DNA of 17,835 bases from an uncultured Anaerolineaceae bacterium (GTDB lineage Bacteria; Chloroflexota; Anaerolineae; Promineifilales; Promineifilaceae), in assembly GCA_937967805.1 (NCBI GenBank), contig CALBTC010000436.1:1-17835 (forward strand), given 5' to 3'. How positions within the stretch are numbered: position 1 is the first letter of the stretch; each line of letters begins with the position of its first letter. The notes below the pieces were generated by a model. The model did no database searches, was not told the DNA's origin, and saw only the letters and a program-made list of their open reading frames with translations. This document shows, piece after piece, positions 931 to 17,835 of the stretch. Both the position numbers and the translations under genes were made by a program.

Positions 931-1854
931 TCACGTTTTTTCCTTCTTACTGCGAAACCACTCCCAGGTTTGCATCAATCCATCGGCCAACGGCGTGGTT
1001 GGCTGCCAGCCCAGCAGTTTGGCCGCTTTGGATACGGCCGCATAATCCTGCCCAATATCCCCCGCCCGCCGCTCAGAATGGGCCACCTCAATCGGCTGCT
1101 GCGTCACCTGGGCAATCTGCTCGGTGAGTGCCAGGATGCTTGTCTCCGTCCCCGTGGCAATTTGGAACAGCTCGCCGCTGATCTCGCTCTCCAGCGCCAG
1201 CTGAATCGCCCGGCACAAATCCCCCACAAAAATAAAATCGCGCGTCTGCTGCCCGTCACCGTGAATGGTGAGCGGCCGTTTGGCCAACATCGCCTTGTAA
1301 AACTGGGCCACCACCCCCTGGGTGTGCCTGCTAAACGGCCCGTACAGATTGGCAAAACGCAAAATAATTGTGCCCAATCCCCAGGAACCGTGATACGCCA
1401 TACAATACCCTTCCCCCGCCAGCTTGCTGGCGCCGTAGGGCGAGATGGGCAGCGGAGCCTGCGCCTCGTGGGCCGGCGGCCGTTGGCGGCCCAGTGGCGC
1501 ATTGGATGAAGCAAACAGAAAGCGCGGCACCTCGGCCTGGCGGCACGCCTCCAGCAGGTTGAGCGTTCCCAGCACGTTAAGCCGGCAATCATAAAAGGGC
1601 TCAGCGACGGAGTCCGGCACGCTGGTTTGGGCCGCCAGGTGGATGACGCCGTTTACGTCACGCACGGCCGTTTGCACCCCATCCCGATCCAAAATGTCCC
1701 CTTCAACCAGCTCAATGTCCAAACCGGCCAGGTAGCTGCGCTGCCCCGTGGCAAAGTTGTCTAACACGCGGATTGAATACCCCTCAACCAGCAGCCGTCG
1801 CACCAAATTGGCCCCAATAAAACCTGCGCCTCCTGTAATTAAAACCTTCTTCAT
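931..1854 (-). CDS. NAD-dependent sugar-nucleotide epimerase/dehydratase (extended SDR, GalE/TviC-like)
   Basis: The 307-residue product is a short-chain dehydrogenase of the extended type that acts on nucleotide-linked sugars. The Rossmann glycine motif GGAGFIG is at residues 8-14, DNFATG at 32-37, HLAAQTSV at 72-79, the catalytic YGASK at 140-144 (Tyr140, Lys144), and RFANLYGP follows at about 166-173. Length and motifs fit UDP-glucose/UDP-GlcNAc(A) 4-epimerases. The serine segment reads SSNAPLG instead of the usual SSS/T-x-VYG, so substrate cannot be fixed. The start is ATG at 1854, with AAGGA about ten bases before it; the frame continues upstream without family similarity. It is divergent from the UDP-sugar dehydrogenase. 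That pairing resembles TviB/TviC or WbpO/WbpP systems, which make UDP-N-acetylgalactosaminuronate for surface polymers (inference). Confidence 0.85.
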   Translation of the reverse strand: MKKVLITGGAGFIGANLVRRLLVEGYSIRVLDNFATGQRSYLAGLDIELVEGDILDRDGVQTAVRDVNGVIHLAAQTSVPDSVAEPFYDCRLNVLGTLNLLEACRQAEVPRFLFASSNAPLGRQRPPAHEAQAPLPISPYGASKLAGEGYCMAYHGSWGLGTIILRFANLYGPFSRHTQGVVAQFYKAMLAKRPLTIHGDGQQTRDFIFVGDLCRAIQLALESEISGELFQIATGTETSILALTEQIAQVTQQPIEVAHSERRAGDIGQDYAAVSKAAKLLGWQPTTPLADGLMQTWEWFRSKKEKT

Positions 1855-1903
1855 CTGCTTTATTCCTTTTATTGATTCTGCCTGCGGACACCGCCTGAGT
1901 GTC

Positions 1904-1932
1904 TTGAACCAAATGGCCATTATCGCTATACT
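1904..1932 (+). promoter_or_regulatory. Putative promoter of the UDP-sugar dehydrogenase
   Basis: TTGAAC (1904-1909) and TATACT (1927-1932) are separated by exactly 17 bases; the -10 matches the consensus at five of six positions. Transcription would begin near 1939. That leaves GTG 1945 almost no leader and favours one of the downstream ATG codons (1957 or 1972) as start of the dehydrogenase. Prediction by eye. Confidence 0.5.
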
Positions 1933-1971
1933 CCACCCACTCAAGTGCATAAAGGAATGATAATTAATCAC

Positions 1972-3282
1972 ATGGAAAGAAAAGATAAATTGTTGCAAAA
2001 AATTAATAATCACCAAGCTAGAATTGGTGTGGTTGGTTTAGGTTATGTTGGTTTACCGTTGGTTGTGGCTTTTGCCCAGGCGGGTTTTTGTGTTGTTGGC
2101 GTTGATGTGAACCCGGACAAAGTGGCGCAGCTGCGGCAGGGGCAAAGCTATATTGCCGACGTGCCCGCGGCCGAGATTGCGCCCCTGGTGGCCAACGGCC
2201 GTTTCCAACCCACCACCGACTACAAACAGCTGGCCGGCACCGATGCCATCTCCATTTGCGTGCCCACGCCGCTGCGCAAAACCAAAGACCCGGACATCTC
2301 CTACATCATCGACGCCGCCGAAAATATCTCTCGCGTCGGTGCCACGGGCAAACTGGTGGTCCTGGAATCCACCACTTACCCTGGCACGACCGAAGAAATC
2401 ATCCTGCCCCGGCTCATCCACAATGGTGACCGGGTGGGGCAAGATTTCTTCCTCGCCTTTTCGCCGGAGCGCATCGATCCGGGCCGGACCGACTACACCG
2501 TGTACAACACGCCCAAAGTAATTGGTGGCATGACGCCTGCCTGCCGGGAAACGGCCGTTGCCCTCTACGGCACCATCGTGGCCCAGCCCGTGCCCGTTTC
2601 CAGCACCGCCGCCGCCGAAATGGTGAAGCTGCTGGAAAACACCTTCCGCGCCGTCAACATCGGCCTCGTGAACGAAGTCGCCCTGATGTGCGACCGGCTG
2701 GGGCTGAACGTCTGGGAAGTGGTCCAGGCCGCCGCCACCAAGCCGTACGGCTTTATGCCTTTTTATCCCGGTCCCGGACTGGGCGGGCACTGCATTCCCA
2801 TCGATCCCCATTACCTGAGCTGGAAGCTGCGCACGCTCAACTACACGGCGCGTTTCATTGAGCTGGCCGCCGAGGTGAACAGCGCCATGCCCGCTTACGT
2901 CGTCGGCAAGATTGCCGCGGGACTCAACGAATTCCGCAAAGCGGTCAACGGCAGTCGCGTTCTGCTGCTGGGCGTGGCCTACAAGCCCAACGTCGCCGAC
3001 GTGCGCGAAAGTCCGGCGCTGGACATTATCCATTTGCTGCAAGCCCAGGGCGCAGAGATTAGCTACCATGATCCGCACGTGCCTGATTTGACGCTGGATG
3101 AGTTTACGGCCGAATCGATCCCGCTCACGGCCGTTACTCTACAGCAGGCCGATTGCGTCGTCATCGTCACCGATCATGCCGCCTTCGACTGGCCGCTCAT
3201 CGCCCAGCACGCCCCGCTCATCGTCGATACCCGCAACGCGCTAAAGACGGGTGAGGTGAACGGCCGTTTGCTGACCCTTTAA
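1972..3282 (+). CDS. UDP-sugar 6-dehydrogenase (WbpA/TviB-like nucleotide sugar dehydrogenase)
   Basis: The 436-residue product belongs to the UDP-glucose/UDP-N-acetylhexosamine dehydrogenase family, which oxidises the C6 alcohol of a UDP-sugar to a carboxylate with two NAD+. The N-terminal NAD fold has GVVGLGYVGLPL at 19-30. ESTTYPGTTEE (132-142) and SPERIDPG (164-171) follow, then KLLENTFRAVNI (219-230) with the conserved Lys219 and Asn223, and the catalytic cysteine in GGHCIPIDP (Cys274). The C-terminal UDP-binding domain includes GVAYKPNVADVRESPA. The SPERIDPG and LENTFRAVNI forms favour N-acetylhexosamine substrates over UDP-glucose, but this is not certain. The start is uncertain: ATG 1972 gives the family's normal N-terminus, though AAGGA is 15 bases upstream; ATG 1957 and GTG 1945 are in frame. 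The first 35 codons are markedly AT-rich compared with the rest. Confidence 0.9.
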   Translation: MERKDKLLQKINNHQARIGVVGLGYVGLPLVVAFAQAGFCVVGVDVNPDKVAQLRQGQSYIADVPAAEIAPLVANGRFQPTTDYKQLAGTDAISICVPTPLRKTKDPDISYIIDAAENISRVGATGKLVVLESTTYPGTTEEIILPRLIHNGDRVGQDFFLAFSPERIDPGRTDYTVYNTPKVIGGMTPACRETAVALYGTIVAQPVPVSSTAAAEMVKLLENTFRAVNIGLVNEVALMCDRLGLNVWEVVQAAATKPYGFMPFYPGPGLGGHCIPIDPHYLSWKLRTLNYTARFIELAAEVNSAMPAYVVGKIAAGLNEFRKAVNGSRVLLLGVAYKPNVADVRESPALDIIHLLQAQGAEISYHDPHVPDLTLDEFTAESIPLTAVTLQQADCVVIVTDHAAFDWPLIAQHAPLIVDTRNALKTGEVNGRLLTL

Positions 3283-3340
3283 CCGCGGAGAATGCGGAGG
3301 GATTAAAAAATCTCTGCGCCCTCTGCGCTCTCCGCGGTTA
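3280..3340. repeat. Unit-doubled palindrome joining two stop codons
   Basis: TAACCGCGGAGA (3280-3291) is perfectly complementary to TCTCCGCGGTTA (3329-3340). Inside, GCGGAGGG (3294-3301) pairs with CCCTCTGC, so each arm is a doubled GCGGAG-type unit. The outermost three bases on the left are the TAA of the dehydrogenase and on the right the TAA (read as TTA) of the convergent methyltransferase. It can serve as a bidirectional terminator, although no clear T run follows either side. Confidence 0.7.
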
Positions 3341-4771
3341 TTCAATCTCTAATCGCCAATCGCCAATTCGCCGCAGGCCGCGTGGATAATGGTTTTTGAG
3401 ACGGCCGTTCACCCGCTTGCCCCAGCCCAGCACAAACCCGTCCACCGCCACCGGCAGCCAGCCGTCGGGCCCGGCATTGGGCAAATCCAGCCCTTGCCAG
3501 TAAGCGGCAAGCTCGTCGGAATCGGCGGCGAAGTTGGCCACGTCTGCCGCATCTTCCGGCGTGAGGGCCAATGCCAGGGCGTGATCCGGCCGGAAATACC
3601 CTTTGCGAATCTCGCCCAGCAGCAGCCCGTAGCGAATCAGGTATAATTTGCCCGTTTCCAGGGCCGTTTCCGGCAGCAGGTAGAGACGGCCGTTTACCAA
3701 CAGCAGCCGCTCTTCCACCACCTCAATCTGCAAAAATTCCCGGGCAAATGCCCGCCAGACGGCCAACTCTTTTTTACCCGGCGCTGAAAAGTTGTATGGC
3801 CTGCCATTTGTCTGAGCGTTGTTCTCGCCTTGATTTGTCATCACGGCGATAAAATGACCCTCGCCAGGAAACCGGTGCGGCCAGAGGCGCACGCTTTTTT
3901 GCAGCGATTCGTCTGCCAGGGCGCTATCTACCCAGGACGGCCGTCCGGCAGCAAATCCGGCAAAGCGCGGCGGATCGAGGAGTGTAAATTGGGGAAAGTC
4001 GCGCAAAAATTGGGCAATCACCACTTCATTCTCCTCGGGCGAGAAGGTGCAGGTGGCGTAGACCAGCTGACCGCCCGGCTTTAGCAGTTTGGCAGCGGTG
4101 TGGAGAACGGCCGTTTGCCGCTGCGAACAGGCCAGCACCATTGCCTCACTCCATTCAAATGGCTCTTGCCTGCCGGCAAACTGGTGTTTGCGCATCATGC
4201 CCTCACCAGAGCAGGGGGCATCCACCAGCACCCGGTCAAAAATCGGGCCAAACTGCGCGGCCAACTGCGCCGGCTCGGCGCTGGTGATGAGGCTGTTGCC
4301 TGCCCCCCAGCGCGTCATGTTCTCGGCCAGCAGCCGGGCGCGGCCGGTGTGGATGTCGTTGGCCACCAGCAGGCCGCTGCCCTGCATCTGTGCCGCCAGA
4401 TGGGTGGCTTTGCCGCCGGGCGCGGCCGCCAAATCCAGCACCAGTTCACCTGGCCGTGCCGCCACCAATCCACCCACCACCATCGCCGACGGCTCCTGCA
4501 AATAATACAAACCGGCCGCGTGGTAGGGGTGGCTGCCCGGTTTACGGCCGTCCGTCACCAAAAATCCGGCCGGCTCGTGCGCCCCCACTGCTTTCAGCGC
4601 AAACGGCGAAACGGTGTTAAAATCGGCCGCGCTCAGCTTCAGCGTGTTCACCCGCAGCCCCACGGCCGGCGCTTCGCTGTAGCTTTGCGCAAATTGAGCA
4701 AATTCATCCCCCAACAACCCGGCCATCTTGGCCATAAATTGAGGCGGGGGAGTTTGATGGCTTATTGACAT
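3338..4771 (-). CDS. rsmF: 16S rRNA (cytosine-C5) methyltransferase, RsmF-like (RsmB/NOP family)
   Basis: The 477-residue product is a SAM-dependent RNA m5C methyltransferase. The N-terminal NOP domain has GLRVNTLK at 38-45, and LYYLQEPSAM is at 89-97. The SAM site is DLAAAPGGK (113-121), motif IV is DAPCSG (184-189, Cys187) and motif VI is YATCTFSPEENE with the nucleophile Cys241. Total length and the roughly 170-residue C-terminal region match E. coli RsmF (479 residues), which modifies C1407 of 16S rRNA in the decoding site. Other RsmB/NOP members cannot be excluded. The start at 4771 keeps the family's N-terminal helix; no good ribosome-binding site is visible. The family-like protein ends near PRGLR; the last nine residues (IGDWRLEIE) come from a doubled GGCGATT repeat that runs into the stop codon. 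The gene is divergent from the transglycosylase gene. Confidence 0.87.
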   Translation of the reverse strand: MSISHQTPPPQFMAKMAGLLGDEFAQFAQSYSEAPAVGLRVNTLKLSAADFNTVSPFALKAVGAHEPAGFLVTDGRKPGSHPYHAAGLYYLQEPSAMVVGGLVAARPGELVLDLAAAPGGKATHLAAQMQGSGLLVANDIHTGRARLLAENMTRWGAGNSLITSAEPAQLAAQFGPIFDRVLVDAPCSGEGMMRKHQFAGRQEPFEWSEAMVLACSQRQTAVLHTAAKLLKPGGQLVYATCTFSPEENEVVIAQFLRDFPQFTLLDPPRFAGFAAGRPSWVDSALADESLQKSVRLWPHRFPGEGHFIAVMTNQGENNAQTNGRPYNFSAPGKKELAVWRAFAREFLQIEVVEERLLLVNGRLYLLPETALETGKLYLIRYGLLLGEIRKGYFRPDHALALALTPEDAADVANFAADSDELAAYWQGLDLPNAGPDGWLPVAVDGFVLGWGKRVNGRLKNHYPRGLRRIGDWRLEIE

Positions 4772-4810
4772 AAAATTAATATGGCATTTGGCATTGGAAA
4801 TAACTTTATG

Positions 4811-4871
4811 TCACGCAAAGGCGCAAAGGCGTCAAGATTTTTCTCCTTTGCGACTTCGCGTCTTTGCGTGA
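4811..4871. repeat. Unit-doubled palindrome between divergent genes
   Basis: TCACGCAAAG (4811-4820) pairs perfectly with CTTTGCGTGA (4862-4871), and each arm carries a second copy of the unit (GCGCAAAGGCG on the left, CTTTGCGACTTCGCG on the right). The element fills most of the 130-base divergent spacer between the RsmF-like and transglycosylase genes. Promoters for both must lie in or beside it; none is clear to me. Confidence 0.7.
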
Positions 4872-4901
4872 GACTTCTTAATTTCCGATATTCTCTACTG
4901 T

Positions 4902-6011
4902 ATGCTTTCTGAACTAAAACTGCCGCACGGCACCCTCCAACTACCCGTCTTTTTGCCCGACGGCACCCAGGGCGTGGTGCGCACGCTGGACGCGCGTGAT
5001 TTGGCAGAAGCGCAGATTCAGGCGGTACAGATGAACGTGTTTCACCTGATGCAGCGCCCTGGCTCTTCAACCATTCAGGCGCTGGGCGGCCTGCACCGGA
5101 TGGCCGGCTGGGACCGGCCCATTTTCACCGATTCCGGCGGGTTTCAAGTCTATTCACTTTTGCGCCAAAACGCGAAAAGCGGTTCGATTAACGACAAAGG
5201 GGCCACCTTTCGCCCCGAAGGTTCCGACCGTAAGTTTAATCTGACGCCGGAAAAAAGCGTCCAGCTCCAGCTCAGCTACGGCTCCGACGTGGTGATTTGC
5301 CTGGATGATTGCACCCACGTAGATGATCCGCTGGCCGAACAAGAAAAATCGGTGGCGCGTACGGTGCAGTGGGCGGCGCGCTGCAAAACCGAGTTTGACA
5401 AGATTGTGGCGCAGCGAGAGTTGGCGGAAGGGGAACGGCCGTACCTCATCGCCGTCGTCCAGGGTGGGGCCGAACACCATCTGCGCCGGCAGTGCGCCGA
5501 GCAGCTTCTGGAAATTGGTTTCGCTGGCTACGGCTACGGCGGCTGGCCGCTGGATGCCGATGGCAATTTGCTCACCGAAATGCTGGCCTACACCCGCGAA
5601 CTCATTCCCAACCAGTTTACGCTGCACGCGCTGGGGGTAGGGCATCCGGCCAACGTCGTGGTGAGCACCCGGTTGGGTTACAACATTTTCGACAGCACCA
5701 TGCCCACGCGGGATGCGCGACACGGCCGTCTCATGATCTTCACCGCCGATCCGCGTACTAGTCGCCTGGACGACGCCGGCGATTTCTTCCGCTACATCTA
5801 CATCAAAGACAAAAAGCACGTCAAAACTAACCTGCCCCTCTCCGAATTTTGCGACTGCTTCGCCTGCACCCGCTACAGCCTGGGCTACCTGCACCATCTG
5901 TACGACCTCAACGACGTGCTTTACCAGCGGCTGGCCACGCTGCACAATTTGCGTTTTATGACCCAGCTCATGGCCAACCTTCGCCAGGAGAATGAAAAAA
6001 CGGGACGCTGA
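4902..6011 (+). CDS. tgt: tRNA-guanine transglycosylase family protein, divergent
   Basis: The 369-residue product matches bacterial TGT, which exchanges the wobble guanine of GUN anticodons for a 7-deazaguanine on the queuosine pathway. Visible motifs are TDSGGFQV with Asp77, LDDCTHVD (135-142, equivalent to the base-binding DECT), VVQGG (185-189) and the nucleophile in NIFDSTMPTR (Asp264). The zinc site CDCFAC (Cys317, Cys319, Cys322) is completed by His348 at the canonical 26-residue spacing. Length and zinc site argue against the DNA-modifying DpdA relatives. The loop that is normally FALGGLxVGE reads GYGYGGWPLDADG, so the pocket that selects preQ1 or queuine is altered and the glutamate is lost. 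The substrate could therefore differ. No ribosome-binding site precedes ATG 4902. No queuosine biosynthesis gene is nearby. Confidence 0.85.
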   Translation: MLSELKLPHGTLQLPVFLPDGTQGVVRTLDARDLAEAQIQAVQMNVFHLMQRPGSSTIQALGGLHRMAGWDRPIFTDSGGFQVYSLLRQNAKSGSINDKGATFRPEGSDRKFNLTPEKSVQLQLSYGSDVVICLDDCTHVDDPLAEQEKSVARTVQWAARCKTEFDKIVAQRELAEGERPYLIAVVQGGAEHHLRRQCAEQLLEIGFAGYGYGGWPLDADGNLLTEMLAYTRELIPNQFTLHALGVGHPANVVVSTRLGYNIFDSTMPTRDARHGRLMIFTADPRTSRLDDAGDFFRYIYIKDKKHVKTNLPLSEFCDCFACTRYSLGYLHHLYDLNDVLYQRLATLHNLRFMTQLMANLRQENEKTGR

Positions 6012-6015
6012 TTAC

Positions 6016-6052
6016 CCTGATCTTCCTGATCATTAAAATCAGGTCAATCAGG
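6016..6052. repeat. Unit-doubled palindrome after the transglycosylase gene
   Basis: CCTGAT occurs at 6016-6021 and 6025-6030; its complement ATCAGG occurs at 6038-6043 and 6047-6052. The two pairs nest into one hairpin with a 3x3 internal loop and a seven-base terminal loop. It begins four bases after the TGA of the transglycosylase gene and lies 27 bases before the next gene. No T run follows, so read-through into the methyltransferase gene is possible. Confidence 0.65.
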
Positions 6053-6079
6053 CAAATCTGCGTTCAATTTATTTTAGAA

Positions 6080-6910
6080 ATGCCTGAAGAGATGCTTGAA
6101 ATGTTAACACAGCAAGTTTTGCAGGGGGCCAAGTACCGCGAGGTTGCCCCGGCGCTGGTGCGGCGCATTGGGGCGCAGGAGCTGGCCAGGCGGCGTTCGC
6201 TCAAGGAGGCGGTGAAGGCGACCAAAAACAAGCTGCATCAGATTGGTGGCGCGTACCAGCCAGGCCGGATTAATTATGAAGAAGGGTTGGCCATGCTGCG
6301 CGAACCGGCTACTTCGACTTCGCGCAGTACAGGCGTCTCTTCACCCCACTTCCGCGCCATTTGCCACAGCATCATGCAGGCTCATGCCTCGACCCGCGAA
6401 CGGCTGCCTATTATCGAGGAGTTCTACCAAACCACGCTGGCCAACCTGCCACCCATCCGCACCGTGCTGGACCTGGCCTGCGGACTGAATCCGCTGGCCT
6501 ATCCCTGGCTGCCCCTGCCGGCTGACGTGCAGTACACGGCCGTAGACATCTACGGCGATATGCTCAGTTTCATTCAACAATTTTTTGCGATTGCGAGGGT
6601 AAACGGCCGTACCGAGCAGCGCGACATCATCGGCAATCCGCCGACCGAGCCGGCCGACCTCATCTTGCTGCTTAAAACGCTGCCCTGCCTGGAGCAGGTA
6701 GACAAAAATGCGGCGGCCAATTTGATTGATGCGTTGAACGGCCGTTTCCTGCTCATCAGCTACCCGGCGCAAAGCCTGGGCGGGCGCAGCAAAGGCATGG
6801 TAGAGAATTACACCCGGCAGTTTGAAGCGTTGGCAGACGGCCGTGCCTGGCGGGTAGAGAAGTTTGAATTCAGTACCGAACTTGCCTTCCTGGTAACAAC
6901 CGAATCTTAA
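6080..6910 (+). CDS. 16S rRNA (guanine1405-N7) methyltransferase homologue, Arm/Rmt/Sgm (FmrO) family
   Basis: The 276-residue product has the full signature of the aminoglycoside-resistance methyltransferases (ArmA, RmtA-H, Sgm, FmrO), which methylate N7 of G1405 in 16S rRNA and block 4,6-disubstituted deoxystreptamine drugs. An N-terminal helical RNA-binding extension (about 1-100) is followed by HASTRERLP (102-110), the SAM motif LDLACGLNPLA (130-140), AVDI with Asp156, LLLKTLPCLEQ (196-206) and SLGGRSKGM (232-240). These are the residues known to be conserved across the family, so an active enzyme is likely. The target base is inferred from homology. The start is ATG 6080; ATG 6092 is an alternative. 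It carries four ACGGCCGT copies, the window's dispersed octamer, so it looks native to this genome rather than recently imported. It lies 68 bases after the transglycosylase gene, same strand. Confidence 0.85.
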   Translation: MPEEMLEMLTQQVLQGAKYREVAPALVRRIGAQELARRRSLKEAVKATKNKLHQIGGAYQPGRINYEEGLAMLREPATSTSRSTGVSSPHFRAICHSIMQAHASTRERLPIIEEFYQTTLANLPPIRTVLDLACGLNPLAYPWLPLPADVQYTAVDIYGDMLSFIQQFFAIARVNGRTEQRDIIGNPPTEPADLILLLKTLPCLEQVDKNAAANLIDALNGRFLLISYPAQSLGGRSKGMVENYTRQFEALADGRAWRVEKFEFSTELAFLVTTES

Positions 6911-6925
6911 CCCTGCTGAAATAAC

Positions 6926-6970
6926 CGCAGATTTCTCTCTGCACCTCCGTGCCTCTGCGTTGGCTTTTTT
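6926..6970 (+). terminator. Probable terminator between convergent genes
   Basis: CGCAGA (6926-6931) pairs with TCTGCG (6954-6959); a smaller GCAC/GTGC stem (6941-6944/6949-6952) sits in the loop. Six T residues follow at 6965-6970. The sequence also belongs to the family of CTCTGCG-type doubled units seen at 3280-3340. It would end the methyltransferase transcript. Confidence 0.45.
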
Positions 6971-6984
6971 CAGTGGACTAAATC

Positions 6985-8004: not shown

Positions 8005-8383
8005 ATCTAAGACTATACATGCCCCGGCTAAGTTCATCAACTTCATTACATGCCTATATAATCTGGACCTTTTTACATTTGTTGCAAGGTACTCATTTTA
8101 GAATGCTGGATGGGAAGAAGGGAGTTGCATTCTCAGATGTTGAACCATTTGTTTGGCTAACGACATCTGGGAATGCACGGGCCGTCCCGGTTTGTGACGT
8201 TTTATGCCAGTTGGGTACTAAAGAATGGCGCAAAATTCCACACGGCGCTATTATCTGCTATCTTAACGACTATCGTTAGCTTGGTCTGCCATCTTTGTGA
8301 TCGGCATCGTGCAGTTTTAACCAGGCGACCTTTGCCAGAAAATCGTATCGTTATTGCTTGACCACTCCTTACCTGAAAAACTT
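8005..8383. other. Divergent regulatory spacer, no convincing gene
   Basis: This 379-base stretch separates the flavodoxin gene from the histidine kinase gene. It contains a perfect TATAAT on the plus strand at 8057-8062 without a good -35 (TTCATC at 8033-8038 is weak). The same AT-rich site read on the minus strand offers TATATA-type -10 sequences for the flavodoxin gene. Short open frames cross the region on the plus strand (7995-8279 and 8173-8361), but they lack ribosome-binding sites and recognisable protein features. The plus-strand leader would be about 315 bases if TATAAT is used. Confidence 0.45.
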
Positions 8384-10813: not shown

Positions 10814-10880
10814 TCGGTTATCGGTAGGTCGGTAATCCGTAATCCGTAATCAGTTACCGATTACCGTTCACCGATTACGG
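10808..10880. repeat. Unit-doubled palindrome between convergent kinase genes
   Basis: CGGTAATCGGT (10808-10818) is perfectly complementary to ACCGATTACCG (10856-10866). Between and after these are three copies of a TAATCCG-like unit and its complement GATTACGG (10873-10880). The left arm contains the TAA stop (10811-10813) of the histidine kinase gene and the element ends two bases before the stop of the convergent gene. It probably serves as a bidirectional terminator, though T runs are absent. Confidence 0.65.
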
Positions 10881-10882
10881 AA

Positions 10883-12733
10883 CTAGGGTGCCGTCATGGC
10901 GCAGCGGAAGCCTAAATTGTCTCGCTTCACGGTGGGGTCAAAGGAGCTGCGGGTGACCACGCTCAGATCTTCGGCGGAGGAAAGCCAGGAGCCGCCGCGA
11001 ATTGCTTTGAACTCGCCTTCGGGCGGGCCAAGGGGATTGGTGTCTGTACTGCTTTCGTAGTAGCGGCGATCGTACCAATCGCTCACCCACTCCATCACGT
11101 TGCCGGCCATGTCGTACGCGCCAATGGGAGAACGGCCGTTTACAAAACTACCCACCGGTGCCACAATCCTAAAGCCATCATCCACGCTGCTGTCCCGACC
11201 GCCGGAGGCGCAGCTGGCATCGCAAAAGTTCACCTTTGTGCCGTCAAATGCATCCCCCCATGGATAGCGCAGCACAATCGACTGGGTGGGGTCAAAGCCC
11301 GCCGCCATCTCCCATTCCGCTTCAGACGGCAGCCGCCCGCCGCGCCAGTCGCAAAACGTATCGGCGTTGTACCAGGAGACCTGAATCACCGGATAGTCGG
11401 CGTAGTCAGGGTCTTCATAGTAGCCTGGAGGAATGGGCGCGCTGCTGCTGCCCGGCGGGGCGCAGACGCCTGCCTCCACGCATTGGGTATACTGCCCGTT
11501 GGTCACTTCCGTTTCATCAATAAAAAAGGGATCGATGCGCACCAGGTGAGACGGCCGTTCATCCGCTTCCCCTTCATCCGTGCCCATGCGGAACAGGCCG
11601 CCGGGCATAAACACCATGCGCGCCCCCGTATCGGTGATGAGCGGTTCCGGGCTGGGCGTAGGCGGCAGCGTCGGCGCGGGCAGCGGTGAAGGCGTGGGGG
11701 CCATAGAGGTCATCGCAGCCACAATGGCCGATTCCAGCGTGGCGGTGGCTTCGGCTTCGGCCGTTTCATCTGCGCCACGCAAACCAGACAGGGTAAAAAC
11801 AGCACCGATGAGCAAAACTAGCGCCAGAATCACCACCAAAGCAACGATAGTGCGCTGCTCCATTTGCCGCCGGGTGCGCGGCGAGAGGCGGGGCGGCGGT
11901 GGGCTGCCCAACTGGCGCGTGGGGCTGCGGCGCGGTTCGGCCGGCTGTAGGTTCGGCTGGCTGTTGGGTTTGCTCAGGGCGTTGGCGAACGATTCGGCCG
12001 TTTCGTAGCGGGCAGCGGCGCGTAAAGAAAGCGCCCGGTTGGCCACCAAAGAGAGATATGGCGGCACGTCTGTGTTCACCTCGCGGGCCGGAATCAGATC
12101 CGCCAGGCCGGTTTCGCGGCTGAGGGCGTTGGGCGGTACCTGGTTGGTCAGCAGCGTGTAGAGCGTGGCCCCCAGGCTGTAAATATCGCTGGCGGGGGAG
12201 ACGTCTTGCTGCGCCTGCTGTTCGGGTGAGCCGTATCCCTGGCTGTGCAAATGAACGCCCATCCCTGGCAGCCCGCTGTCTACCAGAAAAACGGTTCCTT
12301 CCGGCGTCACGCGAATATTGGCCGGCTTGATATTGAGGTGGAGCTGCCCTTTTTTGTGCAGGTAGGTAAGCGGTTGGCAGGCGGCCTGTAACCATTCAAT
12401 GATGCGGTCGGAGGGGAGACGGCCGTATTGGTCCAACAAACTCTGTAAATCAACGCCGTCCACATAGCTGCTCACCAAATATTGCCCGCTTTGCTCAATG
12501 GCAAAATGGTCCAGCACCTGTGGCAGTTGCGGATGCGACAGATCGCTCAGGCGGCGTGCCTCCTGGCGAAACAGCTTCTGCATTGCCACCGAGCCGTCCC
12601 GGTACTCCTTTAGCGCCACGTCCCGGTTGTCCACCACGTCGCGCGCCCGGTAGACGGCCCCGTATTGCCCCTCGGCCAGCAAGTTGATGATGCGATACCG
12701 CTTGTTGAGAAGTTCACCCGGATATAGTGGCAT
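10883..12733 (-). CDS. Membrane Hanks-type pseudokinase with FGE-like (sulfatase-modifying-factor fold) outer domain
   Basis: The 616-residue product starts with a Ser/Thr-kinase-like domain (about 12-255): a glycine loop AEGQYGAVY (20-28), the ATP lysine in VALKEY (Lys42), Glu58, the metal-binding DSG (Asp152 in place of DFG), GSPEQ (168-172) and ASDIYSLGA (181-189). The catalytic loop reads HLNIKPANI (132-140), so the proton-accepting Asp is Asn134; I checked the codon (AAT). Catalysis should be weak or absent, although ATP binding seems intact. A proline-rich linker, one membrane helix (about 296-315) and a Thr/Pro linker (346-364) follow. Residues about 370-616 are an FGE/SUMF1-like domain, with MVFMPGGLFRMG, DETEVTNGQY, RLPSEAEWE, AGNVMEWV and GFRC. 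The two active-site cysteines of true FGE are missing (AIRGGSWLSSAED), so it more likely binds a ligand. It lies 28 bases after the antiporter gene, probably in one operon. Confidence 0.85.
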   Translation of the reverse strand: MPLYPGELLNKRYRIINLLAEGQYGAVYRARDVVDNRDVALKEYRDGSVAMQKLFRQEARRLSDLSHPQLPQVLDHFAIEQSGQYLVSSYVDGVDLQSLLDQYGRLPSDRIIEWLQAACQPLTYLHKKGQLHLNIKPANIRVTPEGTVFLVDSGLPGMGVHLHSQGYGSPEQQAQQDVSPASDIYSLGATLYTLLTNQVPPNALSRETGLADLIPAREVNTDVPPYLSLVANRALSLRAAARYETAESFANALSKPNSQPNLQPAEPRRSPTRQLGSPPPPRLSPRTRRQMEQRTIVALVVILALVLLIGAVFTLSGLRGADETAEAEATATLESAIVAAMTSMAPTPSPLPAPTLPPTPSPEPLITDTGARMVFMPGGLFRMGTDEGEADERPSHLVRIDPFFIDETEVTNGQYTQCVEAGVCAPPGSSSAPIPPGYYEDPDYADYPVIQVSWYNADTFCDWRGGRLPSEAEWEMAAGFDPTQSIVLRYPWGDAFDGTKVNFCDASCASGGRDSSVDDGFRIVAPVGSFVNGRSPIGAYDMAGNVMEWVSDWYDRRYYESSTDTNPLGPPEGEFKAIRGGSWLSSAEDLSVVTRSSFDPTVKRDNLGFRCAMTAP

Positions 12734-12761
12734 AGTTGTTACCTATCTCAACCCTTTTCCC

Positions 12762-14726
12762 TCACGATGGCGCACTCTGATTCTCAAAGCGCAGCATCGC
12801 TTCATCCAGTTTGTCGGGCGCGCCAAACAGGGTGACCTTATCGCCTAACTTAAGCTGCGTGTGTCCGTGGGAGACCAACGTTTGCTGGTCGCGGCGCACA
12901 GACAAAATCAGGACGTCCAGCGGCAGGCGCAGTTCGCGCAGCGTGATGCCGTCCAGATCACGGTTGCGCATCTCGATGTCCACAATTTCTTGCTGATGTT
13001 CGCCACCCAGCAGGAGTGTTGATGAAGAAGGTGCCCGCACAAATTGTTCAAGTAGGGAGACAACGGCCGTATCCGGTTCCACAATCAACGCCCCCAACTC
13101 TTGCAGTGCCGGATGCAGCTCCCGGTCGCGGGAATGCACCACCACCGTTTCTGTACCAAAATGTTCATAAATCAGCTCGCAAACCCGCAAATTTTCTTCG
13201 TCAGACAACATCAGCACAAAGCTGTCTGCCTGAGCCGCTTCCAACGATTGCAGCGACGCCAGCGAAAAATCCGGCAGCAGACGCACGTCCAGGGCATTGC
13301 TGTCCAACAGCGCCAGGCGCATTTGCATCCGATCATTGTCTAAAGCGGCCAGGCGCACCTGCCAATGGTGCGCTTTAAGCTTTCGCGCCAGCGTCACCGA
13401 TTGTGGGTTGAGTCCCAGAATGATGACATCACGCACCCCATCGAAGGGGGCTGCTTCTGCCTGCACATGGGACTCTCCCATGCGGTTCAGCGCCAGCTTA
13501 AACAAAATCGGGCCAACAATCTCGTTCAGCACCACCATGGCGATAATGGTGGTGGCAAACGCATCTCCCCATCCAGGAAACGCCACGCCTACCTCTTTGG
13601 CCAGCCCCAGGGCCACACCAGCCTGCGTCACAAAAACCATCCATTTGTACCGATTGCTTTTGAGCGAGTCCCCAGCCAACGTGCCGCCGGCAAACGAGCC
13701 GATGAGAATGACTACCCCGCGAATGAGGGCCAGGGCCAGGGCAATGGGCCACACCTGGGCCAAAATTTCCAGCTTGAGCCCTTCTCCCACATGGGTGAAA
13801 AAGGCAACGTAAACATACGGTCCAACGTTATGTAAAATCTCGGCAAATTCCAATCGTCTTTGGCTGTAATTGTTAATGATAAAACTGCCGACCATACAGA
13901 TGAGCAAGGGTTCCAGCAAAATTTCAAATGGAAAGTTGTCGTGTGTATATTCACGCACCTGCGCCGAGAAGACGTAAACGGCAAAGCCCAAAGCCAGGAT
14001 CACGGCCGTTTTCACCACAGGCCGCCAATGTCGCTGCAACACCAAAAGCAGCAGGCGGCTCAACAGATACCCTATTGCCACAGACAGCAGCAGCTCAACC
14101 GCCAGCAGCAGCAGCAGCGAAAGATTGATCGACACGCCCGTCAGCACCGCGCCGGCAATATCGGCGCTGATGGCAAACAGGACGATCACCAGCACGTCTG
14201 AAATGACCGTGACGCCCAGCGCCAGTTGAGTAAACGGCCCGCGCGCCCGCAGCTCGTTGATCAAGGCAATGGCCACCGATGGCGAACGGGCGACCATGAT
14301 GGTGGCGGCCATCAAGGCAATGGCCACCTGGCCGGTCACCGAAAAAGATTGCATGAACGGGATAAAGTCGGCCAGCATAAAGACCGCCAGCGTGCCGCCA
14401 ATCACGGTGACAAAGACGATAACGGCCGTAACCATCCCAATACTGCGCAGCCGCCCCCGAATTTCCGGTATGTACAGCTCGCTGCCGGCGGCAAAAGCGA
14501 TAAAGGCCAATGAAATCTCGTCAACAAAGCGAAGTGATTCCACAACGTCTTCCTGGGCAAATTCCAGCACAAACGGCCCGGCCAACAGGCCGGTAAATAG
14601 GTAGCCGCTAATTTTGGGAAGCCCAAGATAAGAGAAAAGCCGCCCGACTTGCCAGGAGGCAAGGGCAACCAGGCTAAAATTGAGAAGAAAAATAGATAAT
14701 TGAGGGAATTGTTCAAGGATGTCCAT
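12762..14726 (-). CDS. CPA2-type cation/proton antiporter with C-terminal RCK (TrkA-N/TrkA-C) module
   Basis: The 654-residue product has about 12 membrane segments in residues 10-415 (Na_H_Exchanger fold). GLPKISGYLFTGLLAGP (35-51) and MVARSPSVAIALINE (144-158) are typical KefB/KefC/CPA2 stretches. A single acidic residue occurs in the crossing helix VTVISDVLVI (Asp177), where electrogenic members carry DD; this suggests electroneutral exchange. Residues about 432-555 form a Rossmann-type TrkA-N domain (DVIILGLNPQSV, with the glycine motif reduced to GLNPQS), and about 575-650 form a TrkA-C domain ending in LGDKVTLFG. Known relatives exchange K+ or Na+ for H+ and are gated by nucleotides through RCK. 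The altered glycine motif may weaken NAD(H) binding. ATG 14726 has CGAGG shortly upstream. It is the first gene of a probable two-gene operon. Confidence 0.88.
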   Translation of the reverse strand: MDILEQFPQLSIFLLNFSLVALASWQVGRLFSYLGLPKISGYLFTGLLAGPFVLEFAQEDVVESLRFVDEISLAFIAFAAGSELYIPEIRGRLRSIGMVTAVIVFVTVIGGTLAVFMLADFIPFMQSFSVTGQVAIALMAATIMVARSPSVAIALINELRARGPFTQLALGVTVISDVLVIVLFAISADIAGAVLTGVSINLSLLLLLAVELLLSVAIGYLLSRLLLLVLQRHWRPVVKTAVILALGFAVYVFSAQVREYTHDNFPFEILLEPLLICMVGSFIINNYSQRRLEFAEILHNVGPYVYVAFFTHVGEGLKLEILAQVWPIALALALIRGVVILIGSFAGGTLAGDSLKSNRYKWMVFVTQAGVALGLAKEVGVAFPGWGDAFATTIIAMVVLNEIVGPILFKLALNRMGESHVQAEAAPFDGVRDVIILGLNPQSVTLARKLKAHHWQVRLAALDNDRMQMRLALLDSNALDVRLLPDFSLASLQSLEAAQADSFVLMLSDEENLRVCELIYEHFGTETVVVHSRDRELHPALQELGALIVEPDTAVVSLLEQFVRAPSSSTLLLGGEHQQEIVDIEMRNRDLDGITLRELRLPLDVLILSVRRDQQTLVSHGHTQLKLGDKVTLFGAPDKLDEAMLRFENQSAPS

Positions 14727-14893
14727 AAGCCTCGTAGCGTATCACGTCTGAGCCTGCCAGACGATAGGATGACGGTTATCTCACTTTGTTTTTAACTAAA
14801 CTGGGGAAATGGGCGTGCCGCCTGGTAATTTATAAATTGGTCGGTGCTGCGCAGCCTGATTTTAGCGAATAATAGCAGAATTAAAAAATTGCT

Positions 14894-14921
14894 CTTGAAA
14901 TTGTGTATACTGTTATTCAAG
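14894..14921. promoter_or_regulatory. Operator-like dyad upstream of the cyclase gene
   Basis: CTTGAA (14894-14899) and TTCAAG (14916-14921) are perfect complements, placed exactly symmetrically around the palindrome GTATAC (14905-14910), giving CTTGAA-N5-GTATAC-N5-TTCAAG. TATACT at 14906-14911 is a good -10 candidate, so a bound dimeric regulator would cover it; the matching -35 region is only A-rich (14881-14888). The site ends 36 bases before the start codon. The regulator is unknown. Confidence 0.45.
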
Positions 14922-14957
14922 ATCAATCGCCCTCAGAAAAGAAAAAGGAGAGACGTT

Positions 14958-15797
14958 ATGTGTTTACCGGCTTGTCAAGAGAAGATCACCCAGGCAGTTG
15001 ATATGGGTCGCCGCAACTTTTTAAAGAGCCTCGGCGCGGCTGGCGCAGCTATGGCGGTTGCCCCTGTCGGCTTAAGCTCACCGGCCCGCCACAGAAGCGG
15101 GTCTGCCATTCGTTATCGCAGGATTGTCGATTTAACCCACACGCTTTTTGAGCAGTTTCCCACCTTTTTTGGCGCACAGCAGCTTGAGGTGGAACCGCTT
15201 TTTGAAGCAGCCACAGACGGGTTCAACCTCAACCAGTGGACGATCAATGAGCATACCGGTACCCACATGGACGCCCCGTTCCATTTTTCTGACCAGGATA
15301 CGGCCGATCAAATTCCGGTGGAGAATCTGGTTGGGCCGCTGGCCGTAGTCGACATTCGGGCCAAAGCGGCGGCAGACCCGGATGCCCAGCTGACGATAGA
15401 TGATTTGATTGCCTATGAGCGCGCTTACGGCCGTATCCCCGACGGCGCCATCGTAGCCATGAACAGCGGTTGGGATCAATTTGTTAATACGCCCATGTTT
15501 CGCAACGCCGATGCCGACGGCGTGCTCCATTTTCCTGGCTTTCACCTGGAGGCCGTACAATATTTATTGGCATACCGTCACGTCAAGGGCATTATGGTAG
15601 ACACTTTGAGTCTTGACTACGGTCCCTCACCTGATTTTGCGGTTCACTTTGAATGGTTACCGGCAAACCGCTGGGGGATGGAAGCGGTGGCCAATTTAGG
15701 GCACCTGCCGCCCAAAGGTGCCACGGTGGTTGCCGGTGGCCCTAAAATTCAAGGGGCCACCGGCGGTCCCAGCCGCCTCATTGCCTTTTCACCATAA
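14958..15797 (+). CDS. Tat-exported cyclase-family metal-dependent hydrolase (kynurenine formamidase-like)
   Basis: The 279-residue product belongs to the cyclase/KynB family of metal-dependent amide and lactone hydrolases. HTGTHMDAPFHF (99-110) is the diagnostic metal-binding motif. RIVDLTHTLFE (55-65), VAMNSGWDQF (166-175), PGFHLEAVQYL (193-203, His196), GIMVDTLSLDYG (211-222) and the closing WGMEAVANL with Glu242 follow. GRRNFLKSLGAAGAAMAVAP (17-36) is a twin-arginine signal, so the folded enzyme should be exported. Fifteen residues precede the Tat motif and contain CLPAC; ATG 15003, just before the Tat motif, is an alternative, but ATG 14958 has an excellent AAGGAG seven bases upstream. 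An operator-like dyad lies at 14894-14921. The substrate is unknown; no tryptophan-degradation genes are nearby. Confidence 0.87.
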   Translation: MCLPACQEKITQAVDMGRRNFLKSLGAAGAAMAVAPVGLSSPARHRSGSAIRYRRIVDLTHTLFEQFPTFFGAQQLEVEPLFEAATDGFNLNQWTINEHTGTHMDAPFHFSDQDTADQIPVENLVGPLAVVDIRAKAAADPDAQLTIDDLIAYERAYGRIPDGAIVAMNSGWDQFVNTPMFRNADADGVLHFPGFHLEAVQYLLAYRHVKGIMVDTLSLDYGPSPDFAVHFEWLPANRWGMEAVANLGHLPPKGATVVAGGPKIQGATGGPSRLIAFSP

Positions 15798-15805
15798 AAT
15801 TCCGT

Positions 15806-15841
15806 GATGCGTTGACGTGAATTGGTTCACGTCAACGCATC
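15806..15841. terminator. Perfect 16-bp hairpin between convergent genes
   Basis: Bases 15806-15821 (GATGCGTTGACGTGAA) pair without mismatch with 15826-15841; the loop is TTGG. It begins nine bases after the cyclase stop. On the other side it contains the last codons and TGA stop (15827-15829) of the NACHT gene. Neither strand has a proper T run, so it may work as a transcript-end stabiliser as well as a bidirectional terminator. Confidence 0.65.
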
Positions 15842-17683
15842 GGCCGTTTCTCTGAAATAATCCAGCAGCAGCAGATGCACAAACATGTAGCCGCCGCCCA
15901 CCTTGCGCAGCAGGTTGCGTTCGGCGGCGTAATCTAAAAAGTGGACGTAATCGTCGGGGGCCAATTGATGTTCGCTTAAAACGCGATGCAACCGCCTGTG
16001 CTGCAAGGCGGCCAGCCCGCCATAAGCCAGTCCGGCAGAGATGCCCAAATAAAGCGAAATGCCCACGGCAAAAGGCCAAAAGGTAGCGGCGGCCGGCGGC
16101 ATGTTGAGCCAATTTGTAATGAGCCAGCCAAGCCCGAGCAGCACGGCCGTTCCCACCCCGGTGATGATGCCGATGAGACGGCCGTTCTGCGCTGACCGGT
16201 TCAATCCCTGCCCCGGCGTGGTGCGCATCTTCATCTCGTCCCGCTCCAGCGCGTGGGCCACCGTCTGGCTGATCAGGCCGACCAGCGCCAACAGAATCAC
16301 CCAGCCGCCGGAGAGCGGCGGGTCCAGGCCGCGTCCCGCCAGCCAGAGCAGCCCGCCCAGCAAACCACCGCCAACCAGCCCCAGACCGCCGCCCAGCACG
16401 GCCCGCAGCCAGCGCCAGTTGAGCGTTTCCACCGTCTCAATGCGGAACCACGACACGCGTGCCCACACCAGCAGCAGGCGAAAAAGGGCCAGCAGGCCGC
16501 CGGCCACAAGCCCGGCCCCCAGACCGGCCAACAAAGCCCGCCAATCGGCCATGAGCAGGCCAACTAATCCCGCCAGCAGGCCAACCAGCACAAACAGCCC
16601 GGCCAGCCGGGTGCGCAGGTCACCGGTAAACTGGCGCTGCTGCTCGCGGGGCAGCCAGTTCGGCTGCAAATTCTCCAGGAAGAAGATCGTCTGGTTGAAC
16701 TGGGACATCTTCTGCGCCAGCCAGCCCAGCCACTGCACGGTTTGTTCCGGCTCATAAATCGATTCGCCGCCGCGATAGCGCACCATGCGCTCGACGTAGA
16801 CGTCAAAGAGCAGCGTGCGCCCCATTTTGCGGTTGCCCAGCGACAGGGCCACGTCCTCTGGCATACGGTAGTAAGCCAGCGTCATCATGCTGAGCATGAG
16901 GGGGGATTCGGCCAGTTCGCGCAACGTCTGGTCCGTTTGCAGCGCGACGCGCAGCCCGGCCAGGCGCGGCCCCATGCTGGCCAGGTATTGGTCAATCTGC
17001 GCCAGCGACAGCGGCTGAAGCACAATCGCCTGGGCCAGGTTGAGCCGGGTGGCCAGCGCCTCGTAATCCTTCAGGCGGCAGGTGACGACGGTGGGCAGCG
17101 TGAGGTAGCGCTGGCGGAACTGGTTGATCGCCTGGGCGCAATCCACGCGGTGTTCTTGTTCCACCTCGTCCAGGCCGTCCAGCAGGGGAAGCAGTTCGCC
17201 GTTTTTGAGCCACAGCTGCCCCAGGCGGCGCGGCACTTCATACCGGTTGGCCAGCTCGTTGACCATCCAGTCGCCCAGGGGAATGTTGTTGGCCCAACTG
17301 GCCAGGCTAAACACCACGGGGATAGGATGACGGCCGTTCATCTGCGCCCGTAACAGTAAATCACTCACCAACTGCAACAGAATGGTCGTTTTGCCCGCCC
17401 CCGGCTCGCCCATGATGAGCAGCGTGCCTTCGGCCTCGTCGTACACCTCGGTGATGTGGGTGCCCAGGGGCAAGGGGGTGTCGAACAGTTCATCGGGCAG
17501 CAGGTTGTCCGGTTGGTGGTAATCGGCCGTGACCAGGTGACTGGCGACGGCATTGGTGCGGTAGGTCATGGCCAGGTCAATCAGCTCCGCGCCGTGCAGC
17601 GATTCTTGCAGCACGCCGACGAGCCAATACGTTTTCACCCGCTGGAGCATCACCTGGCGGTTGTGGTTGTTTTGTACTTCCAT
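15827..17683 (-). CDS. Membrane-embedded NACHT (STAND) NTPase
   Basis: The 618-residue product is a STAND-type ATPase. An N-terminal segment (about 9-45; NRQVMLQRVKTYWLVGVLQE) resembles the short conserved domain found before NACHT in many filamentous-bacterial proteins. Walker A is GEPGAGKTT (92-100), Walker B LLPLLDGLDEV (164-174), and the sensor strand is VVTCRLKDYE (199-208). A winged-helix-like region continues to about 355. Then follow about six membrane helices (roughly 362-378, 384-404, 429-449, 460-476, 504-525, 536-560). A C-terminal cytoplasmic helix carries YMFVHLLLLDYF (599-610). STAND proteins oligomerise on sensing a signal; prokaryotic members include anti-phage sensors. Here the membrane region would be the effector or an anchor. 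No leucine-rich, TPR or WD40 sensor domain is present. Its GGAGG ribosome-binding site lies within the hairpin at 17691-17746. Confidence 0.85.
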   Translation of the reverse strand: MEVQNNHNRQVMLQRVKTYWLVGVLQESLHGAELIDLAMTYRTNAVASHLVTADYHQPDNLLPDELFDTPLPLGTHITEVYDEAEGTLLIMGEPGAGKTTILLQLVSDLLLRAQMNGRHPIPVVFSLASWANNIPLGDWMVNELANRYEVPRRLGQLWLKNGELLPLLDGLDEVEQEHRVDCAQAINQFRQRYLTLPTVVTCRLKDYEALATRLNLAQAIVLQPLSLAQIDQYLASMGPRLAGLRVALQTDQTLRELAESPLMLSMMTLAYYRMPEDVALSLGNRKMGRTLLFDVYVERMVRYRGGESIYEPEQTVQWLGWLAQKMSQFNQTIFFLENLQPNWLPREQQRQFTGDLRTRLAGLFVLVGLLAGLVGLLMADWRALLAGLGAGLVAGGLLALFRLLLVWARVSWFRIETVETLNWRWLRAVLGGGLGLVGGGLLGGLLWLAGRGLDPPLSGGWVILLALVGLISQTVAHALERDEMKMRTTPGQGLNRSAQNGRLIGIITGVGTAVLLGLGWLITNWLNMPPAAATFWPFAVGISLYLGISAGLAYGGLAALQHRRLHRVLSEHQLAPDDYVHFLDYAAERNLLRKVGGGYMFVHLLLLDYFRETADALT

Positions 17684-17690
17684 AGTTTTT

Positions 17691-17746
17691 AACCTCCCGG
17701 AGGCTCAGCGAATGAGCTTCGCCTTAGACAAAACCTCCGGGAGGTT
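17691..17746 (-). repeat. 13-bp perfect inverted repeat masking the NACHT ribosome-binding site
   Basis: AACCTCCCGGAGG (17691-17703) is fully complementary to CCTCCGGGAGGTT (17734-17746). Each arm is itself almost palindromic, and GCTCA/TGAGC (17703-17707/17713-17717) forms an inner stem. In the NACHT mRNA the arm nearest the gene reads CCTCCGGGAGGTT, and its GGGAGG is the Shine-Dalgarno sequence, nine bases before the ATG. When folded it is fully paired. The element also separates the NACHT gene from the upstream amidohydrolase stop at 17751. Confidence 0.7.
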
Positions 17747-17750
17747 CGGA

Positions 17751-17835
17751 TTACATCAGGTTTTTGTGGATACGGCCGTTTTTCACCACCAGCCGAATAT
17801 TGTCCACATCTTCCAAACTGCGAATGTCGGCCAGC
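17751..17835 (-). CDS. C-terminal end of an amidohydrolase-like protein (partial)
   Basis: Reading leftward from the right edge, frame 17834-17751 encodes LADIRSLEDVDNIRLVVKNG, then RIHKNLM and a TAA stop. The pattern 'ADIRSLxDVxxIRLVVKNGRI' is the characteristic last strand pair of amidohydrolase-superfamily enzymes (imidazolonepropionase, prolidase-like and cytosine-deaminase-like proteins), where it closes the small beta domain beside the metal-dependent barrel. Only 27 residues are visible and the start lies outside the window, so the substrate cannot be named. An ACGGCCGT copy encodes its Asn-Gly-Arg. The NACHT gene begins 67 bases downstream on the same strand, so co-transcription is possible if the intervening hairpin does not terminate. 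Confidence 0.7.
   Translation of the reverse strand, partial: LADIRSLEDVDNIRLVVKNGRIHKNLM

Follow-up and report, generated by a model that had tools for sequence, protein, structure and literature searches.

The word ACGGCCGT in the window

Our subject is an octameric palindrome, ACGGCCGT, in a stretch of 17,835 nucleotides from an uncultured Anaerolineaceae bacterium of the Chloroflexota (contig CALBTC010000436.1 of assembly GCA_937967805.1; this whole stretch is called the window). By direct count, the 17.8-kb window contains 31 exact copies that span positions 1664–17779; in 200 shuffles of the window that preserve its dinucleotides, the mean is 0.44 copies and the maximum is 4. ACGGCCGT is also the commonest octameric palindrome in the window (31 copies vs 3 for the runner-up). 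The original prediction, made from the letters alone, had counted 31 copies against about 0.4 expected and had placed them on both strands and in different reading frames, and both statements hold: 30 of the 31 copies are inside the 12 open reading frames (ORFs) used here, on both strands and in all three frames, and one is outside (a palindrome has no strand of its own). The 30 coding copies are read as Thr-Ala-Val (TAV; 11 copies), Asn-Gly-Arg (NGR; 10 copies), Asp/His/Tyr-Gly-Arg (5 copies), and x-Arg-Pro-x (4 copies); the emphasis that had been put on NGR is therefore apt for a third of the copies (10 of 31), with TAV equally common (11).

The ORFs are named by their Pfam matches, and the copies are numbered from 1 to 31 along the window. 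The epimerase ORF (931–2016) contains copy 1 (1664–1671, TAV), and the UDP-sugar dehydrogenase ORF (1945–3282) contains copies 2–5 (2195–2202, NGR; 2551–2558, TAV; 3127–3134, TAV; 3260–3267, NGR). These are followed by an RsmF-type rRNA methyltransferase ORF (3338–4771) with copies 6–10 (3401–3408, NGR; 3686–3693, NGR; 3937–3944, GRPS; 4107–4114, TAV; 4544–4551, DGR), a TGT-family ORF (4902–6011) with copies 11 (5435–5442, ERPY) and 12 (5722–5729, HGR), and an FmrO-family rRNA methyltransferase ORF (6080–6910) with copies 13–16 (6536–6543, TAV; 6603–6610, NGR; 6738–6745, NGR; 6837–6844, DGR). Copies 17–20 are located in an FHA-GAF histidine kinase ORF (8354–10813; copies at 8733–8740, NGR; 9526–9533, LRPL; 9815–9822, TAV; 10427–10434, TAV), copies 21–23 in a Pkinase + FGE-sulfatase ORF (10883–12733; 11132–11139, NGR; 11551–11558, ERPS; 12419–12426, YGR), and copies 24–26, all read as TAV, in a Na/H exchanger + TrkA ORF (12762–14726; 13063–13070, 14002–14009, and 14422–14429). 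A putative cyclase ORF (14844–15797) contains copy 27 (15427–15434, YGR) and a NACHT ORF (15827–17683) contains copies 28–30 (16143–16150, TAV; 16178–16185, NGR; 17330–17337, NGR); copy 31 (17772–17779) is the one outside the 12 ORFs.

Pfam largely agrees with the protein names first proposed (RsmF and FmrO-type methyltransferases, UDP-sugar dehydrogenase, FHA-GAF histidine kinase, NACHT); however, what was called a pseudokinase combines a Pkinase with an FGE-sulfatase domain, and the match of the supposed amidohydrolase is PF04199 (Cyclase). The FmrO match (PF07091, E = 2.8e-62) is to a family associated with aminoglycoside resistance in producers. A small ORF at 337–756 has a weak match to HU-HIG (PF18291, HU-type DNA-binding, E = 8e-7), and an Rfam scan of the window gave no match that reached the gathering threshold.

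Spread among genomes and conservation as DNA

All whole-genome statements in this work are for the genomes of relatives, not for the source genome of the window (G and L numbers identify genomes and loci, respectively). Relatives of the TGT-family protein, at most 94% identical, are encoded by metagenome-assembled genomes labelled Anaerolineae or Chloroflexota, and three of their loci (L001, L004, and L028) align over most of the window. Fifteen of 18 relatives' genomes contain 5,641–15,176 copies of ACGGCCGT, that is, 1.05–2.09 per kb; G011 contains 2,887 (0.44 per kb) and two outgroup genomes contain 47 and 31 (~0.01 per kb). The reversed word, used as a control, occurs 40–459 times in the same 18 genomes. 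The word thus shows the genome-wide over-representation of a highly iterated palindrome (HIP), with ~1,050–2,090 copies per million in 15 of the 18 genomes, within the HIP range of 500–2,500.

Base composition does not account for these numbers. With an order-1 Markov model, samples from seven genomes (47–140 kb) contain 131–247 copies vs 1.0–2.6 expected (e.g., 146 vs 1.6, 226 vs 1.8, and 177 vs 2.4 in samples of 119.5, 133.3, and 140.0 kb); even order-4 models, which already hold most of the word, are ~8- to 10-fold too low. The original prediction had named an excess limited to the window, or a genome-wide count close to the Markov expectation, as the results that would speak against it; we ran this test on the relatives and found neither, the excess being genome-wide. 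In a survey of 396 Anaerolineae genomes, a subset of a larger group, 18 reach a density of 0.9 copies per kb or more, 376 have at most 0.18, and two are intermediate (G167, 0.42; G296, 0.51).

In the tgt tree, all 23 of the carriers (genomes that carry the word) are within one supported set of 28 rows; the five other rows in this set are labelled non-carriers, and one of these is G196, which has its own word instead (vide infra). The tree requires 3 changes of carrier state compared with a shuffled mean of 13.6; it leaves out L030–L032, the paralogues L052–L063, and the duplicates L034–L041. Many relatives encode two paralogues of the TGT family (PF01702), the second ~35% identical to the protein encoded by the window, and for some carriers only this other paralogue was seen.

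We measured retention of the word with ungapped eight-base comparisons in the aligned regions of 20 pairs, each pair counted in both directions. In 12 pairs that are 77–88% identical, ACGGCCGT is retained in 82–95% of comparisons vs 22–53% for scrambled words of the same letters; in the eight pairs with 68.6–72.5% identity, the values are 48–74% and 10–17%. Likewise, in the rpoB genes of seven distant carriers, ACGGCCGT is retained in 134 of 168 cases vs 466 of 3,584 for controls. Fourfold-degenerate third positions differ in 48 of 905 cases inside the word and in 11,425 of 28,821 outside (6 of the 20 pairs). We conclude that ACGGCCGT is conserved copy by copy as DNA, not as protein.

The fates of the copies are also distinctive (12 of the 20 pairs). 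Of 1,324 comparisons of ACGGCCGT, 1,148 show a perfect copy in the partner and 54, 39, 45, and 19 have one to four changes; of the 15,775 control comparisons, 4,584, 4,977, 3,525, 1,621, and 616 have zero to four changes, so, unlike the controls, copies that are not shared are often several bases away. CGGCCG with other flanks has a retention close to that of the controls in most of the 12 pairs (e.g., 32 of 105 for G001/G004, 0.31 vs 0.25), and it is always less than that of the octamer.

The standard fixation formula that links a rate ratio to a scaled strength converts the ratio of fourfold rates inside and outside the word, ~0.10, to a scaled strength of 3.6. The numbers of variants give a similar value: 1,168 copies of ACGGCCGT compared with a mean of 9.4 for each inner one-base variant correspond to ~4.8 (both estimates, 3.6 and ~4.8, presuppose symmetric mutation), and the outer one-base variants, with a mean of 56 each, correspond to 2.75–3.66. 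Pooled over six genomes, the inner one-mismatch forms are near expectation (170 vs 200), two of the six being slightly above it. Deviations from ACGGCCGT are concentrated at the first and last positions, as in other HIPs. The force is therefore weak and nearly uniform on many copies, and the core matters more than the outer bases.

Regular spacing of the word was not seen in the seven genomes that were examined; pairs of copies less than 100 bp apart are rarer than expected in six of the seven (barely so in G001), and the coefficient of variation of the spacing is 1.6 and 2.7 in two genomes that have deserts. The largest desert, 25.8 kb without the word, is located in G017 (contig C90, ~103,000–129,000; L082 and L083). 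Its genes encode a Tn7-type TnsA-like protein, TniQ, a ResIII/Mrr restriction-type helicase, a C5 methyltransferase, an HATPase, and two histidine kinases; we infer that this DNA was imported, and it may be a defence or transposon island.

Dialects, contigs with phage genes, and the search for a reader

Several genomes have a different word with the same hexameric core. The whole genome of G196 contains 12,040 copies of GCGGCCGC, 2 of its reversed control, and 83 of ACGGCCGT; this genome is placed among the carriers in both the rpoB and the tgt trees. G112 has TCGGCCGA (74 copies in 60 kb vs 1.8 expected). In G167, G296, G219, and G364, CGGCCG is in excess with nearly any flank, with G296 leaning to A..T: samples of 30.7–40 kb contain 208, 106, 149, and 87 hexamers, respectively, vs 17, 9.7, 21, and 8.2 expected, and the any-flank genomes contain 19,809–25,568 hexamers each. 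The hexamer is retained in the rpoB genes of three any-flank genomes (32 of 56 vs 12 of 81). In the rpoB tree (20 rows), the six genomes that are not A..T form a supported group (96/95) that adjoins the A..T genomes; the root is uncertain. Thus, the CGGCCG core is constant, the outer pair evolves, and A..T flanks are the commonest.

When other genomes are aligned with G196, 14 of 23 comparisons have one position that is ACGGCCGT in the partner and GCGGCCGC in G196. A general in-place switch from ACGGCCGT to GCGGCCGC is not shown; the rpoB gene of G196 holds only two core words, neither flanked by G..C. In the samples of G196 (L104–L111), other palindromes are depleted, with 1 GGGCCC vs 108 expected, 1 GCCGGC vs 68, 0 GTCGAC vs 24, and 0 GAGCTC vs 22; this suggests many restriction systems beside one hoarded palindrome.

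A weaker flank-neutral excess of CGGCCG, ~3- to 4-fold, was observed in G053, G085, and G131. In other Anaerolineae the hexamer is nearly absent: the 6.0 Mb of G378 contain 7 copies vs 858 of the reversed word, GCCGGC, and the corresponding numbers are 16 and 1,479 in G069, 13 and 862 in G141, 92 and 5,312 in G135, and 2 and 192 in G257. The same hexamer is hoarded or shunned within one class.

The word is also found in contigs with phage genes. Viral contigs were scanned for two copies of ACGGCCGT 90–120 bases apart, so these contigs were chosen by the word. Among the matches listed, 19 of 80 loci carry more than one copy per kb, and one to four proteins were scanned from each of 14 of these 19. 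Six loci (L166, L168, L180, L217, L218, and L222) have matches to tailed-phage head, portal, or terminase proteins; they contain 8–18 copies each (1.6–2.6 per kb) where 0.06–0.24 are expected, and each has at least one copy inside structural genes. Their density is thus similar to that of the carrier genomes. Five relatives of one terminase (41–42% identity) have zero copies. A scan of viral contigs with GCGGCCGC gave nothing firm, the densest among the matches listed being mostly GC-rich. Two further loci (L182 and L231), also selected by the word, are pieces of one 100-kb 'viral' contig, IMGVR_UViG_3300033417_000002, with 3.7 and 2.8 copies per kb; one piece has ParA, FtsK/SpoIIIE, and lytic transglycosylase matches, and the contig resembles a plasmid or conjugative element more closely than a phage.

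We searched for a protein that could read the word using family profiles; the genomes of the carriers may be incomplete, so single absences mean little. The methyltransferase panels (PF00145 and PF01555) include 22 A..T carriers, with G112 and G364 outside of them. PF00145 (cytosine-5 methyltransferase) has no match in 9 of the 22, nor in G011, G219, and G380, so a solitary cytosine-5 methyltransferase is not general. PF01555 is matched only weakly in G001, G004, G006, G010, and G011 and not at all in G219; G004, G006, and G010 also lack PF00145 (their PF01555 matches have E-values of 4e-8 to 5e-4), and G219 has neither family. Neither family is universal, and both were rejected as a reader common to all carriers. 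DndC is over the cut-off in only 3 of 23 carriers, that is, the phosphorothioate (Dnd) system is not a general feature of the carriers, and Vsr is found in only 2 of 23. Three of 23 carriers (G370, G364, and G167) and three of 6 non-carriers have a long PF12705 nuclease ORF (at least 900 amino acids); in 19 other carriers the matching ORFs are all short (~176–331 amino acids), and G249 has no match. ComEC (PF03772), which is matched in 22 of 23 carriers, was rejected as a discriminating factor, given that the non-carriers have it as well (6 of 6). For comparison, the methylated motifs of the Anaerolineae CL500-11 from Lake Biwa are GANTC, TTAA, and GCWGC (PMC6329791; this and the other papers cited by accession are represented here by extracts of their text).

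Interpretation and comparison with known systems

We conclude that a group of Anaerolineae has ACGGCCGT as a highly iterated palindrome and that this word resembles HIP1, the palindrome of cyanobacteria, in the respects tested. The original prediction of HIP1-like behaviour with a different word is well supported: the word is genome-wide, occurs in many relatives at 1–2 copies per kb, is conserved at the level of DNA, and has its near-misses at the outer positions. The prediction had also allowed a plain mutational bias; this is disfavoured because bases within the copies change ~10 times more slowly than fourfold sites elsewhere.

The retention of the copies as DNA is consistent with their being sites for a putative host-encoded, dyad-symmetric, DNA-recognising factor for genome maintenance, a reading to which we give about even confidence. 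Such a candidate factor would bind or process each copy on DNA living in the cell, with a role in chromosome organisation, replication, recombination, or repair. Perfect copies would have a small and nearly uniform advantage, with a scaled strength of ~4, that would be lost by one-step defects inside the CGGCCG core; a change in the specificity of the factor for the outer bases would move a genome to a new dialect, and a conserved cytosine-5 methyltransferase would not be needed. These data do not tie the word to a methyltransferase, and such an enzyme looks dispensable in some genomes. A fuller and more tentative proposal, possible but held with less confidence, is that a group of Chloroflexota has a HIP system without a methyltransferase, with a hard core and evolving dialects, in which the word would tell the putative host factor that DNA is resident and phages of these hosts would have been forced to acquire it.

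Several observations weigh against the host-factor reading. The word is denser in coding than in non-coding DNA in seven of seven genomes (six A..T genomes and G196, with ORFs called by a simple picker), which gives no sign of regulatory placement; its spacing is near random, with a coefficient of variation of 0.93–1.05 in five genomes. The outer one-mismatch forms clearly exceed expectation (336 vs 101 in six genomes), so specificity for A..T is not absolute, and CGGCCG with other flanks is retained above control in some pairs (0.37 vs 0.22, 0.47 vs 0.31, 0.72 vs 0.53, and 0.71 vs 0.43). No enzyme family covered by the profile searches is both specific for and common to the carriers; furthermore, the dialect genomes G196, G167, and G296 do have PF00145 enzymes, and 18 of 22 carriers have a strong match to the PF01555 methyltransferase family. 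The limits of the clade are drawn from two single-gene trees (rpoB and tgt). The phage contigs were selected by the word and therefore show existence, not frequency; their hosts are inferred from the word alone, and they may be prophages. A repair-based drive would yield the same statistics, which do not separate selection from biased repair.

That drive is the main rival of the host-factor reading, although we consider it somewhat doubtful: a mismatch-directed enzyme or biased gene conversion would perfect near-misses without any benefit to the cell, as Elhai proposed for HIP1 with methyl-directed mismatch repair. A conversion bias would suit both the small, uniform force on thousands of sites and the all-or-none fates, and phage DNA would be exposed to it too; however, Elhai's version requires cognate cytosine methylation, whereas 9 of 22 carriers have no PF00145 match, G219 has neither methyltransferase family, and Vsr is in 2 of 23 carriers (MutS, MutL, and MutH were not searched). 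It is unlikely that CGGCCG is instead a modification target, with the cell reading a methyl or other mark placed by an enzyme beyond the searched families or by different enzymes in different genomes. In the extracts from Elhai (PMC4390886), every cyanobacterial genome in which words are highly over-represented is concluded to have a putative cognate methyltransferase, and PF01555 is matched strongly in 18 of 22 carriers; against this, PF00145 is missing in 9 of 22, PF01555 is only weak in G004, G006, and G010, G219 has neither, and DndC exceeds the cut-off in 3 of 23 carriers only. An adenine methyltransferase cannot serve all of the dialects because the any-flank core, CGGCCG, holds no adenine.

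Import of word-bearing DNA by competent cells, with the word accumulating by recombination as for the DNA uptake sequences of Neisseria and Haemophilus, would fit the presence of ComEC in 22 of 23 carriers and the excess of outer one-mismatch forms (336 vs 101) that a drive would give. However, the non-carriers have ComEC too (6 of 6), the inner one-mismatch forms show no excess (170 vs 200), uptake words are described as non-palindromic and richer in non-coding DNA (PMC1939737) whereas the non-coding density here is lower, and contigs with phage genes carry the word; we judge this explanation quite improbable. A Chi-like recombination signal read by a RecBCD/AddAB helicase-nuclease is more improbable still, given a long PF12705 ORF in 3 of 23 carriers and 3 of 6 non-carriers (other nuclease and helicase families were not searched). 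Finally, the word in coding DNA often reads TAV or NGR, as an effect of protein sequence might produce, but an effect of protein, codons, or composition, or an assembly artefact, is scarcely credible: the word is in three frames and on both strands, fourfold conservation is found only inside it, the excess persists against dinucleotide and Markov controls, and the same word is in genomes from many separate submissions. The Markov, retention, and fourfold tests refute this reading, as far as these tools go.

Among known systems, DNA uptake words have a similar density and have dialects with a shared core. The likeness of ACGGCCGT to DNA uptake sequences and uptake signal sequences (DUS/USS) is that of a short word far above chance with outer near-misses in excess; it differs in that uptake words are non-palindromic and richer in non-coding DNA, according to the extracts from PMC1939737, whereas here the coding DNA is richer and the inner near-misses are not in excess. 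The carriers also differ from what a Chi system would suggest, with a long PF12705 ORF in only 3 of 23. Chi words are species-specific, enriched, and directional with a smaller excess, and can occur in phages. CGGCCG is the site of EagI and GGCC that of HaeIII, both type II restriction-modification sites; the core word is the same, but restriction leads to avoidance (cf. G378), whereas here the word is in excess.

HIP1 (GCGATCGC), described in 1995, is cyanobacterial and often tied to methyltransferases, and its function is still debated. Both HIP1 and ACGGCCGT are GC-rich palindromes found genome-wide at ~0.5–2.5 copies per kb; the density of HIP1 in two genomes is 855 and 1,418 per million (PMC3497702), and HIP1 is reported to be maintained by selection (cited in PMC6604393). 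HIP1 has a 6-bp core with outer bases that vary by lineage (GCGATCGC, TCGATCGA) and near-misses mostly at positions 1 and 8 (PMC4390886), and the CGGCCG word likewise has a 6-bp core, lineage-variable outer bases, and outer-position near-misses. ACGGCCGT is not HIP1 in the strict sense, since the word is not GCGATCGC and the genomes are not cyanobacterial; here the phylum is another one, the core is CGGCCG, and there are several full dialects that include a hexamer with nearly any flank. Some carriers have neither a PF00145 enzyme nor a convincing PF01555 one; this difference from HIP1 is one of degree because some HIP1 genomes also are without a CGATCG enzyme, as noted by Elhai (extracts of PMC4390886). 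The word is also present here in contigs with phage genes; cyanophages were not part of the comparison.

Among the matches listed in the literature that we searched, represented by extracts, there is no HIP outside of the cyanobacteria; the extracts from PMC3497702 mention, as an unpublished result, that octamers reach the frequency of HIP1 in very few bacterial genomes, so that some non-cyanobacterial cases may already be known. If the recogniser is found, it would define a genome-wide system for reading DNA at thousands of sites per genome that also marks the sequences of proteins. Beside HIP1, this group of Chloroflexota provides a second lineage for testing HIPs. Its density of the word equals or exceeds that of HIP1, it has several dialects, some near-relatives lack the word, and some contigs with phage genes carry it; comparisons beyond the reach of cyanobacteria alone could therefore ask which gene follows the dialect, whether the system needs methylation, and what phages gain.

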